From contig RFSX01000002.1 of the NCBI GenBank assembly GCA_009923745.1, positions 1-46,730 on the forward strand: 46,730 nt of DNA. The letters run 5' to 3'. The DNA comes from Chitinophagia bacterium. Its GTDB lineage: Bacteria > Bacteroidota > Bacteroidia > Chitinophagales > Saprospiraceae. This document shows, piece by piece, positions 27,359 through 36,650 of the stretch; position 1 is the stretch's first letter, and each line of letters opens with the position of its first letter. Under the pieces are notes generated by a model. The model searched no databases, had not been told where the DNA came from, and saw only the letters and a program-made list of their open reading frames with translations. The position numbers were made by a program, and so were the translations under genes.

Positions 27359-29644
27359 ATGGCATTTGACATTGACATGATCAGGAAGCATTATGACAGC
27401 TTCAAAGAAAGAGTGGACAACGCAAAATCTGTCCTGAATCGACCGCTTACATTGGCGGAAAAAATATTGTATGCTCATCTTCATCAGGATTCACCTTTGC
27501 AGAATTATAATCGTGGAAAAGACTATGTCTTTTTTGCACCCGATCGAGTTGCCATGCAGGATGCTACTGCTCAGATGGCGCTGTTGCAATTTATGATGGC
27601 AGGAAAAAACAAGGTGGCAGTTCCTTCTACGGTACACTGCGACCACCTTATCCAGGCCAAAGTCGGAGCAGACCAGGATTTGAAAGTTGCCAATGATATC
27701 AATTCTGAGGTGTTCAACTTTCTTGAATCGGTATCCAACAAATACGGTATAGGGTTTTGGGAGCCTGGAGCAGGAATTATTCACCAGGTGGTACTTGAGA
27801 ATTATGCTTTCCCTGGAGGAATGATGATAGGAACAGATTCGCATACTCCGAATGCTGGAGGTCTGGGCATGGTAGCCATAGGTGTTGGTGGTGCTGACGC
27901 GGTAGATGTTATGGCCGGCATGGGATGGGAATTAAAAATGCCTAAGCTTATAGGTGTGAAATTAACAGGTAAGCTGAGTGGATGGGCTACTCCTAAAGAT
28001 GTGATCTTAAAGGTTGCTGATATACTGACTGTTAAAGGAGGAACCGGTGCGATCGTCGAGTATTTTGGTCCTGGAGCTACAAGTATGTCCTGTACAGGTA
28101 AGGGTACGATCTGCAATATGGGTGCTGAAATTGGAGCTACTACCTCTACATTTGGATACGATGAATCAATGGACAGATATCTGCGCGCTACAGGAAGAGC
28201 AGAAGTTGCGGATATGGCCAATACGATGATGCCATACTTGACAGGGGATGACGAATGTTACATTGACCCGTCAAGCTATTTCGACCAGCTTATCGAAATC
28301 GATCTGGAGACCTTGGAACCTATGCTTAACGGACCGTTTACACCAGATCTGGGTACGCCGGTTTCAAGAATGAAGGAGACTGCTGAAAAAAATGGTTGGC
28401 CAACAGAATTGGAGTATTGCCTGATTGGCTCGTGCACCAATTCTTCCTATGAAGATATATCACGTGCGGCTTCAATAGCTCGTCAGGCTGTAGCTAAAGG
28501 TATTAAAGCCAAGTCGCAATTAACCGTAACGCCAGGGTCTGAACAAGTGCGATTCACAATTGAAAGGGATGGGCTGATAGATGATCTTGAAAGTATGGGA
28601 GCAATGGTGTTTGCCAATGCTTGCGGACCCTGTATTGGCCAGTGGGCACGATTTGCTGATCCGACAACCGCACCCAAAAACAGTATTGTGCACTCATTCA
28701 ACAGAAACTTTTCCAAGCGTGCCGACGGAAGCCCCAACACACATGCCTTTGTGGCGTCCCCTGAACTGGTGACAGCAATAGCCTTATCCGGACGATTGGG
28801 CTTTAATCCGATTACGGATACCTTGACAAATGAGCATGGCGAAGAGGTAAAATTGGATCCACCATCAGGTTACGAATTGCCTCCTAAAGGATTTGATGTA
28901 GAAGATGCTGGCTACAATGCACCTGCCGAAAACGGATCTGATATCAAAGTGGTTGTAGCACCGGGTTCAGACAGACTTCAATTGCTTGATCCATTTACAC
29001 CGATAAGCAAAGACGAGGTAAGTAATATGCGTCTTTTGATTAAAGCTAAAGGTAAGTGTACAACGGATCACATCTCCATGGCAGGACCTTGGTTGAAATA
29101 CAGGGGTCACCTGGAGAATATTTCCAATAACTGTTTTATTGGCGCCATTAATTATTTTAATGACAAGGCTAACAGCGTGGCCAATTATGTTGACAATGAT
29201 TCAAACGCTGAATTCCTGGCCGTACCAGATTCGGCGAGAAAATATAAAGCTGCTGGAATTGGTACCATCGTTTTCGGAGAAGAAAACTATGGTGAAGGAT
29301 CCTCCAGGGAACATGCTGCCATGGAGCCGCGCTATCTGGGAGTAAAGGCTGTTGTTGTAAAATCATTTGCACGTATCCACGAGACAAACCTCAAGAAGCA
29401 GGGAATGTTGGCTCTGACCTTTGCCAATCCAGCCGATTATGAAAAGCTCAGACAGGATGACAAAGTGAGCATTGAAGGTTTTGAGACGATGGCTCCTGAT
29501 ACGCCGCTGACTATAGTTCTTCATCACGCAGACGGTAGTGAAGAGCGATTTGATGTTAACCATACCTTCAACCACGCTCAGATAGAGTGGGTGAGAGCCG
29601 GTTCAGCATTGAATAAGATCAGGGAGGAGCTTAAAAACCAATAA
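27359..29644 (+). CDS. Aconitate hydratase
   Basis: Aconitase interconverts citrate and isocitrate in the TCA cycle using a 4Fe-4S cluster. The 761-residue protein is of the mitochondrial type. Its cluster cysteines are Cys359 in [10 protein letters not shown] and Cys422 and Cys425 in [11 protein letters not shown], nearly the same numbering as mammalian aconitase. Other family stretches are [20 protein letters not shown] and the swivel-domain [19 protein letters not shown]. Its terminator overlaps the stop codon. It is not clustered with other TCA genes here. Confidence 0.97.
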
Positions 29645-29662
29645 GGACTTATTGGTTTTTAA
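29631..29662 (+). terminator. Strong terminator overlapping the aconitase stop
   Basis: TTAAAAACCAATAAG (29631-29645) and CTTATTGGTTTTTAA (29648-29662) are perfect 15-base arms with only two central bases, in practice a 14-pair stem with a four-base loop. The stop codon TAA (29642-29644) is inside the left arm. The T5 run in the right arm and symmetry suggest it works in both directions. Confidence 0.85.
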
Positions 29663-29681
29663 ATGCTTTAGTGCATTAATG
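29662..29681. repeat. Left inverted copy of the octamer repeat
   Basis: AATGCTTTAGTGCATTAATG is, as its reverse complement, identical at 18 of 20 positions to the start of the CATTAAAG array at 30132. The two lie on either side of the four-helix-bundle pseudogene in inverted orientation. Confidence 0.6.
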
Positions 29682-29755
29682 TCTTCTTATCTGAAGGGTT
29701 TCTTTGAAGCAACTTGATTACTTAGTTTCAGTTTCATCATTCTTAGGAAAAAGGA

Positions 29756-30137
29756 ATGAAAAAAGAATTGTTTATCAATGAAATTAAGAAGAGGGCAAAG
29801 TCACTTGTATTGAAGGTTATTGTCAAATGTAATGGACTATCCAAGGGCATGTCTAACCGAATTATAGCCAATCAGTTAATCAGGTCAGCCTCATCGATAG
29901 GAGCGAACTACTTCCTCTTGTTGTGTTGCACGATCAAGGAAGGAGTTTTTCAGTAAGCTGAGCATTGTAATTGAAGAAACCAATGAAACCATTTATTGGC
30001 TTGATTTACTTGACTCCCTTCATAAAGATCATACGGAATTTGATGTAAAACCTTTTGTTGAAGAGACAACTGAACTTTTGAAAATATTTGTTTCAGCCAG
30101 AAATACTATGTTCAAAAAAAAAGAGTTGACCCATTAA
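29756..30137 (+). pseudogene. Four-helix-bundle protein (S23/IVP family), frameshifted
   Basis: The frame from ATG 29756 reads MKKELFINEIKKRAKSLVLK and continues to RSASSIGANY, the typical N-terminal half of the small S23-type four-helix-bundle proteins first seen in 23S rRNA intervening sequences. It then runs into an unrelated tail ending at 29956. One base later, the other frame from 29913 reads SSCCVARSRKEFFSKLSIVI and on to SARNTMFKKKELTH, stopping at 30135-30137. The number of residues between GANY and RSRKEF then matches the family exactly. A single extra base near 29912-29927 explains the break; the restored protein would have about 126 residues. It may be a real mutation or a sequencing error. 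The function of the family is unknown. Confidence 0.85.
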
Positions 30138-30187
30138 AGCATTAAAGCATTAAAGCATTAAAGCATTAAAGCATTAAAGCATTAAAT
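30132..30187. repeat. Tandem octamer array (CATTAAAG)n
   Basis: There are six perfect copies of CATTAAAG (30132-30179) and a seventh, CATTAAAT (30180-30187). The first copy contains the TAA stop of the four-helix-bundle gene, and the last base of the array is the first base of the TGA stop of the converging regulator gene. The array thus fills the whole gap. A related, diverged set of units lies at 36577-36650. Confidence 0.97.
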
Positions 30188-30687
30188 CACCTCATTACCT
30201 TCACGAAAGTATTCAGAAAGAAATTGGACTCAGACTGGATGAGCTTATCGAGGGCTTTATCAGCAGCAGAGGAGATCATATCCAATTCGTAAATCACATT
30301 TTTGAATTCTTCAGACTGCCGGTCGCTTATTTCAATTTGTGAGATGTCCCGAATCATATCCAGCATGGGATTGAGTTCTTTTGTTTTGCGTTTTTCAAGG
30401 GTTTTTCTGAAGACGTTCCAGAAATTTTTCTCGGCAGTAAAATAATCCTTGCGGTCCCCTGGCTTGGAACCGCGGTAGGCCAGACCCCAATCCATAAGTG
30501 CTCTCAGGTTCATATTGGCGTTTCCTCGTGAAATTTTTAATTCAGCCATAATTTCTTCTGCCGTGAGTGGGTCAGGACTGATAAGAAGAAGGGCATGGAT
30601 ATGACCCATGGCGCGATTGATGCCCCAATTAATACCCAATTCACCCCATGTTGCTATAAACTGCTTTTTGGCGTCTTCAAATTTCAT
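30187..30687 (-). CDS. GbsR/MarR-like transcriptional regulator
   Basis: This winged-helix DNA-binding regulator converges on the octamer array. I use the ATG at 30687 (166 residues, MKFEDAKKQFIATWGELGIN), since homologues of this type begin with this helix; upstream codons to 30762 look non-family. The helix-turn-helix is around LTAEEIMAELKISRGNANMNLRALMDWGLAYR, and the wing contains GDRKDYFTAEKN. A long C-terminal helical dimerisation region follows. GbsR-type proteins often respond to small metabolites. It lies 105 bases downstream of gcvT on the same strand; the regulated gene is unknown. Confidence 0.88.
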   Translation of the reverse strand: MKFEDAKKQFIATWGELGINWGINRAMGHIHALLLISPDPLTAEEIMAELKISRGNANMNLRALMDWGLAYRGSKPGDRKDYFTAEKNFWNVFRKTLEKRKTKELNPMLDMIRDISQIEISDRQSEEFKNVIYELDMISSAADKALDKLIQSESNFFLNTFVKVMR

Positions 30688-30792
30688 AATACGAAACTCT
30701 GATATATGGGAAATAGAAATTTCAAGGAATGGTTCAGTAAAGCGCGGATTTCTTTTCCACATCGATATGTATAATACCAGCTATCTAATCCC

Positions 30793-36576: not shown

Positions 36577-36650
36577 AATGCCTTAATGCCTAATTGCTTT
36601 ATTGAAAGTTTATTTTTCTACCTTATTAAGCATTAAAGCATTGAAGCATT
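36577..36650. repeat. Inverted octamer-like repeats without a gene
   Basis: The left arm (36577-36603, beginning AATGCCTTAATGCC) and right arm (36625-36650, ATTAAGCATTAAAGCATTGA and on) are imperfect inverted copies; 18 of 23 positions match when one is reverse-complemented. The units resemble the CATTAAAG octamer at 30132. The element fills the gap between the converging moxR and PBP1A genes and could fold as a long imperfect hairpin acting as a two-way terminator. Confidence 0.6.

Follow-up and report, generated by a model that had tools for sequence, protein, structure and literature searches.

The window, i.e., the whole stretch of 46,730 nucleotides analysed here, is a 46.7-kb contig of a fragmented assembly (1.77 Mb in total, 285 contigs, 79.5% complete). 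It carries a gene of the S23/IVP family of four-helix-bundle proteins with a disrupted reading frame, flanked on both sides by short tandem repeats in mutually inverted orientation (Table 1). Upstream lies a gene which, judged from its sequence and not by a family search, we take to encode an aconitase; downstream follows a gene for a MarR-type regulator. Judged from these neighbours the S23 gene is situated between two protein-coding genes and not in a helix of 23S rRNA.

Table 1. Positions of the S23 gene, its arms, the neighbouring genes and a related hairpin in the window
Feature	Position	Strand	Remarks
Presumed aconitase gene, upstream neighbour	27359-29644	+	co-directional with the S23 gene
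Left arm, inverted counterpart of the right array with about 2.5 octamers	29662-29681	+	29659-29681 in a longer ungapped match
S23/IVP gene, 5' part, to the stop met after the frameshift	29756-29956	+	
Open frame with the 3' part of the S23/IVP gene	29901-30137	+	stop TAA 30135-30137 in the first octamer
Right arm, seven tandem octamers CATTAAAG, last unit CATTAAAT	30132-30187	+	
MarR-type regulator gene, downstream neighbour, convergent	30187-30762	-	PF12802, E=7.3e-08
Hairpin without S23 gene, same octamer family as the arms	36577-36650		arms 36577-36596 and 36631-36650, 34-bp loop

The broken S23 gene and its arms

The family assignment was made with the two frames joined by an X, which match PF05635 (E=2.8e-11, 44 bits, cut-off 33.8) and TIGR02436 (E=4.2e-18, 65.6 bits, cut-off 24). 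Each half of the split gene alone also matches an S23 profile built in this analysis. The whole gene spans 29756-30137 and its reading frame is not intact, the break being located at about 29907-29935. Because the assembly is so fragmented the frameshift may be a sequencing or assembly error. In a PF05635 search of the own genome the split gene was missed at the default E-value and recovered at 0.01. PF05635 is the only family matched by the window protein, in which neither a Y1 (HUH) tyrosine transposase domain nor a match to the Avd profile NF033474 was found. RVT_1 was not found in the window's own genome (79.5% complete).

The reverse complement of the left arm, AATGCTTTAGTGCATTAATG, is identical to the right array at 18 of 20 positions. 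From the last sense codon of the S23 gene the right array runs through the stop codon, contained in its first unit, to that of the MarR-type gene on the opposite strand. Both the broken gene between inverted octamer arms and the overlap of the right array with the stop codon had been described in the initial annotation and are confirmed, with coordinates that were right within a few bases. The anatomy of the cassette discussed below is present: inverted arrays with units of 7-8 bp enclose an S23 gene. By eye, the left arm has 4 G vs 2 C and the right array is balanced; the polarity of the window copy is weak. A predicted RNA fold pairs both arms (z -2.5), and 2 of 100 shuffles fold equally well. 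With its frameshifted gene and short left arm this copy is probably no longer autonomous. Just 5' of the left arm, and overlapping the end of the aconitase gene, is a perfect 15-bp inverted repeat with a 2-bp loop (29631-29662), probably the aconitase terminator.

A 16-mer allowing up to 3 mismatches has nine matches in the window against 1.14 expected, and none of 100 shuffles reaches nine. Chance does not account for these matches. Across the 1.77-Mb genome CATTAANNCATTAANNCATT (up to 2 mismatches) occurs only in both arms, in the S23-less hairpin of Table 1, which folds better than all 200 shuffles, and at two stray sites (C2:31170 and C248:1788); the reversed pattern, used as a control, gave 3 matches. 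As a general signature of the element CATTAAAG was rejected: it is private to the window copy. A search of related genomes for the octamer repeats had been suggested in the initial annotation; the inverted arms are class-wide and the exact octamer is not, other units being used elsewhere.

Inverted arrays around S23 genes

PF05635 is present in 123 of 148 relatives. Many of their S23 genes are flanked by mutually inverted short tandem arrays, the unit differing from locus to locus. Flanks of 58 S23 loci from the relatives' genomes were collected, of which 4 were dropped for short flanks. In the remaining 54 loci about 200 bp upstream were aligned with the reverse complement of about 200 bp downstream, and the best local alignment was scored against a threshold of at least 30. 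Inverted arms were present in 33 of the 54 loci. The controls reached the threshold in 6/54 (direct orientation), 1/49 (shifted flanks) and 43/1080 (cross-locus pairs). Two loci of the genus in this set, L019 and L043, have strongly direct arms.

For a second set, 14 aligned S23 proteins were used to scan named genomes. It comprised 79 loci among the best 80 matches and, after dropping L124, 78; it is not a random sample since only the best 80 matches were kept. Inverted arms scoring at least 30 flank 55 of these 78 loci among the best 80 matches, compared with 325 of 6006 cross-locus pairs (5.4%), and 56 of the 78 beat all 100 dinucleotide shuffles. The median arm score is 34 for the 78 S23 loci among the best 80 matches vs 19 for 193 small genes from the same contigs. 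Twelve of the 193 control genes are themselves S23 genes, 5 of which score at least 30; therefore the fair control count is 2 of 181 non-S23 genes. One of these two (L129, 11190-11766) has strong inverted flanks and is, judged by a sequence motif, presumably a RAYT-like gene. Two outcomes had been named as refutations, namely relatives that always have the gene but no repeats, and repeats just as common beside unrelated genes in the absence of empty sites; neither was seen. Among the same best 80 matches, 23 of the 78 loci score below 30, L142, L147 and L193 being without arms by this test, and 15 of the 78 have direct matches of at least 30 instead of, or besides, inverted ones.

The association is widespread. 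All 12 records among the best 80 matches that are titled outside Bacteroidota and near phyla score at least 34 (Planctomycetota, Desulfosoma, Desulfosarcina, Syntrophobacterales, Acidobacteriaceae, Selenomonadales, Clostridia, Akkermansia, Alpha- and Betaproteobacteria, Limnohabitans and Lambdaproteobacteria); since metagenome bins predominate among them, individual assignments may be in error. A tblastn search of plasmids for S23 returned 45 records, mostly cyanobacterial. Among 16 distinct plasmid loci that were fetched, 15 score at least 29 and 14 at least 30, with units such as AGTAGGG/CCCTACT. The exception without arms of at least 29, L392, is placed after a transposase gene.

The unit sequence is private to each locus; period, complementarity and a G-first polarity are common to the loci. 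In the 55 armed loci among the best 80 matches the best period is 7 in 43, 8 in 9, 5 in 2 and 9 in 1; with its 8-bp unit the window copy belongs to the rarer kind. The G-rich arm is upstream in 50 of these 55 loci among the best 80 matches, the C-rich arm in 4, and 1 is tied. In annotated cyanobacterial plasmid loci the upstream arm is G-rich in 11 of 11.

Among the best 80 matches S23 is co-oriented with both neighbours in 65 of 72 evaluable genes (6 at contig edges were left out), and between co-directional neighbours it is in sense in 65 of 67. Median gaps between S23 and its neighbours, which here are open frames and not annotations, are 56 and 48 bp among these best 80 matches. Three plasmid copies are antisense to both neighbours. 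The genes flanking the cassettes are unrelated between sites. An apparent flip of S23 orientation at fadB-fadA was rejected; it stemmed from a misread strand. S23 genes also occur in neighbouring pairs or small clusters (L251 1287-3178 in G124; L237, G131:C1:504000-516000).

Filled sites, empty sites and hairpins without S23

Thirteen congeners were compared at the window site; 13 of 14 genomes, the own included, have DNA matches to the region. In G008 and G006 the aconitase and MarR-type genes are adjacent in the window's arrangement with gaps of about 100 and 156 bp, and neither S23 nor octamers are found in these gaps, at about 70% identity. The aconitase gene of G005 and G013 is followed, in opposite orientation, by what was read as the same regulator gene; the gap, read by eye, contains no S23 and no octamers. 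The other congeners are uninformative for this site. Because identity is only about 70% this comparison demonstrates absence and not a clean boundary. In G003, 3' of the aconitase gene (L096, about 2400-2700), long tandem repeats with GGAAAACGGATTAGCGG and AAACGGTCTAGCGG segments occupy the place of the cassette.

The best-resolved site is found on closed cyanobacterial plasmids upstream of a VirB10-type gene. It is filled in Trichormus variabilis ATCC 29413 and 0441 and in Scytonema NIES-4073. Six plasmids (Microchaete NIES-3275, Tolypothrix PCC 7601 and 7712, Nostoc linckia NIES-25, Aulosira NIES-50 and N. carneum) align in two pieces with 97-98% identity and are 428 bp shorter; the Nostoc linckia sequence is the one of the six that was read. 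The difference corresponds to the gene plus both arms, i.e., 423 bp plus GTAAT. The empty site has GTAAT a single time, the filled one has it on either side of the insert; this repeat was seen at this one site and could be a 5-bp target duplication or microhomology. Since the empty Nostoc linckia plasmid is without a hairpin, gene and arms came or went together. At the same site Brasilonema pBOCT2 has an S23-less hairpin with the unit family of the filled cassette, and in Nostoc C052 pC052_E a truncated S23 is accompanied by a left arm. The initial annotation had suggested testing whether gene and both arms are gained together, and they do go together: two congeners lack the gene and the octamers together at about 70% identity, and the closed plasmids provide empty sites at 97-98%.

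Several other sites are filled in one strain and empty in another, at 85-95% identity. After TraM the cassette is present in Nostoc C052 and N. edaphicum and absent in Nostoc C057, while Nostoc ATCC 53789 has an S23-less hairpin with the unit of the filled copies; owing to a separate duplication in the empty copy the boundary at this site is not clean. At 90% identity, Picosynechococcus PCC 7003 has a cassette between cmr2 and cmr3, and the corresponding gap in PCC 7002 measures 12 bp. A copy at nrdB/nrdA is absent in Calothrix NIES-4105 (85% identity), and a copy beside an integrase gene is absent in Tolypothrix PCC 7601 (92% identity). A site that is filled in G118 is without S23 in G130 (89-93% identity), where a 78-bp stretch with a hairpin of another unit is located. 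L255 and L258, with flanks 93-94% identical, differ in the S23 gene and the arms that they hold at one site, apart from a common outer right arm. Even between close copies the number of units differs (Trichormus vs Scytonema; Nostoc C052 vs N. edaphicum).

Some of these places, and similar ones, are occupied by other sequences. In the cmr2-cmr3 stretch, where PCC 7003 has S23, a Uma2-family gene is annotated in Synechocystis PCC 7338 and 7339 (H119, H120). The gap between cas6 and cas4 that holds an S23 cassette in Anabaena 90 contains a different palindromic insert, TAGGTTGGGTT...AACCCAACCTA, in Dolichospermum UHCC 0315A (L398, about 1015-1265). One site in Nostoc plasmids (H108-H114, 91-96% identity) has a four-helix-bundle gene annotated in some and not in others; it suggests a hot spot since the gene part in the other plasmids does not align with the query copy. 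In G010 a gap between genes we take, from their sequence, to be paaA and paaB (L102, about 410-500) holds a short gene-less stretch with inverted CATTAA-type octamers; in several congeners (L047, L054, L062, L068) this gap appears to be occupied by S23 genes.

Hairpins without S23 were counted as strict period-7/8 inverted pairs in 400 kb from each of four genomes (G133, G131, G069, G108). The sample from G133, a genome with 14 S23 genes, contains 31 such pairs, 2 with S23 and 29 without; a third S23 gene in the sample has arms that fall short of the strict period criterion. In G131 (6 S23 genes) 5 pairs were counted in 400 kb, 2 of them holding S23, and in G069 1. In G108, in which no S23 was found, 400 kb contain no strict pair. 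Four genomes make no correlation, and the number of S23 genes alone fails to predict hairpins, as G131 demonstrates.

The loops of 28 of the 29 S23-less pairs in G133 measure 1-185 bp and one 520 bp, against 424 and 438 bp for the S23 loops and 389 bp for the third. According to open-frame prediction 22 of the 29 are intergenic. The G133 pairs are G-first in 28 of 30 untied cases vs 11 of 25 other inverted repeats there, a polarity count that belongs to this genome, the other three samples containing too few hairpins. Two of the three cassettes in G133 have units in common with hairpins of their own genome, beating all 200 draws of foreign arms. The third has no unit in common with them; 193 of 200 foreign-arm draws reach its score.

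A proposed mobile cassette and its relation to known systems

For the class we observe the anatomy, the association of S23 genes with inverted arms, presence and absence at the same sites, a common polarity and, at two sites, forms with and without S23 at the same point. Mobility of the class is well supported; the movement itself is inferred from comparing filled and empty sequences. In our judgement the window feature is quite likely a worn copy of a mobile S23 cassette of about 0.4-0.55 kb, in which the S23 gene is located in the stem of inverted 7-8 bp arrays. The initial annotation, a small gene in a repeat-bounded cassette with mobility left as an inference, has gained support from the class-wide association and the empty sites. 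For the window copy itself mobility would follow from its class.

A working model can be outlined. The gene and both arms would be gained or lost as one unit, mostly in short intergenic gaps, and S23-less hairpins of the same arrays may be non-autonomous or deletion relatives. Folded as a stem in single-stranded DNA or RNA, the arms could serve for recognition. The cassette encodes no transposase, nuclease or polymerase. The S23 protein may bind the folded arms and help to move the cassette, and would then drive the movement. Slippage and copying between the arms may rewrite the unit, and in this proposal the ends would therefore remain complementary while their sequence drifts. By analogy with rRNA intervening sequences, which are cut by RNase III (PMC4990558), the stem in transcripts may let the insert be cut out, and operon gaps would thus be tolerable homes.

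Conversely, the hairpins may have come first. Inverted 7/8-bp arrays would then be an independent, fast-changing intergenic feature, e.g., terminators or a repeat family of their own, with S23 genes landing preferentially in the loops. The excess of S23-less over S23-bearing pairs in G133 (29 to 2) is compatible with this, as is the site that is filled in G118 and has an S23-less hairpin of another unit in G130. Yet at the best-resolved site the empty Nostoc linckia plasmid has no hairpin, and G108, a single genome, has neither S23 nor hairpins in 400 kb. We regard this order of events as rather unlikely.

A second possibility is movement via RNA: after excision of the cassette as RNA, a reverse transcriptase supplied in trans would copy it back, with S23 in an Avd-like part. 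Avd of diversity-generating retroelements is a related protein; the S23 relative L012 matches its profile NF033474 with E=1.5e-10, below the cut-off of that profile. The sense bias (65/67 among the best 80 matches) and the excision of rRNA intervening sequences as RNA (PMC4990558) are in line with such a route. Unlike in an Avd system, the window protein has no NF033474 match and RVT_1 was not found in its own, incomplete genome. RVT_1 is present in 59 of 148 relatives, as against 123 for PF05635, and is absent from G025 (8 S23 genes), G028 (7) and G004 (6), each at least 96% complete. It seems that the cassette can do without a reverse transcriptase encoded in the same genome. Further, three plasmid copies are antisense to both neighbours, and altogether we consider this route improbable.

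Placement in operon gaps, a stem in the transcript and the sense bias would equally suit a cis-regulatory module, S23 plus stem, retained to tune the expression of neighbours. The neighbours are, however, unrelated between sites, close relatives do without the cassette at the same site and the window gene is broken, which renders this reading very improbable. Ordinary slippage repeats beside an S23 gene with a cellular role in the operon, associated merely as a by-product of short AT-rich gaps, are hardly credible: slippage surely shapes the arrays, as unit numbers vary between close copies, and S23 is in sense in 65 of 67 co-directional gaps among the best 80 matches, yet slippage yields neither inverted partners across a 360-bp gene nor their polarity, arms are found at only 2 of 181 other small genes of the same contigs, and clean empty sites exist.

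The cassette is organised somewhat like RAYT/REP/REPIN systems, in which a small gene is bracketed by inverted palindromic ends and gene-less relatives are scattered in intergenic regions; RAYT is the textbook case of a palindrome-bracketed gene. Gene-less copies of the end structure are found elsewhere in the genome here as well (36577-36650 in the window; 29 per 400 kb in G133). Unlike RAYT the cassette has no Y1 transposase domain, and its ends have a fixed period and polarity but no fixed sequence.

A second point of contact is with the S23-encoding intervening sequences (IVS) of 23S rRNA in Leptospira and Coxiella (Pfam 23S_rRNA_IVP). Protein family and size are the same and similar, respectively, and both consist of an ORF within a stem of inverted ends, in sense in the host transcript. 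The Coxiella IVS has 428 nt and tandem heptamers, GACAGAT, 5' of its ORF (PMC4990558). The window copy likewise has inverted ends which, in the predicted fold, are able to pair around the S23 ORF. The cassette differs in that it is located between protein genes, its stem consists of tandem arrays with a locus-specific unit, and S23-less hairpins exist. Solved S23 relatives are XCC0516 (2gsc) and 2rld. The cassette is best read as the intergenic counterpart of the S23-encoding rRNA intervening sequences.

Heptameric repeats are a third point of contact. In cyanobacteria they go by the name STRR. With the arms of the cassette the heptameric simple repeats have a period of 7 and an intergenic location in common. 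GGGAATC in Xanthomonas, often as inverted pairs, and GGGGATT in Nostoc are intergenic heptamers (PMC4692102). TAACTGA heptamers occur in Beggiatoaceae, Cyanobacteria and Bacteroidetes, relatives having shorter gaps without the repeats (PMC4679880). Unlike the present work, the main texts of these two papers describe no gene inside the pairs and name no carrier; 'S23' occurs in neither. In the open-licence literature we found no paper tying S23 genes to heptamer or octamer arrays, which is weak evidence of absence.

Two puzzles are linked by these data. The function and origin of S23-encoding IVS were called unclear after more than 25 years (PMC4990558), and heptameric repeats are over-represented in many bacteria, few papers dealing with them (PMC4692102). 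In records from many phyla inverted 7-8 bp arrays enclose S23 genes, and the unit is present or missing as a whole. That the usual unit has 7 bp and is locus-specific, and that S23-less hairpins of the same kind exist, becomes visible only beyond the window. In its broadest form the proposal is that S23 proteins are the movers of a pan-bacterial mobile class with ends recognised by period, polarity and pairing, that this class is the source of many of the unexplained heptameric repeats and that rRNA IVS are one branch of it; we put this forward tentatively, as a possibility we rather doubt than believe. The filled and empty pair in the culturable Picosynechococcus PCC 7003 and PCC 7002 makes the model testable. 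A mobile unit without a conserved end sequence or a known transposase would be unusual, and the cassette may help to account for the puzzling 7-letter repeats in bacterial genomes.
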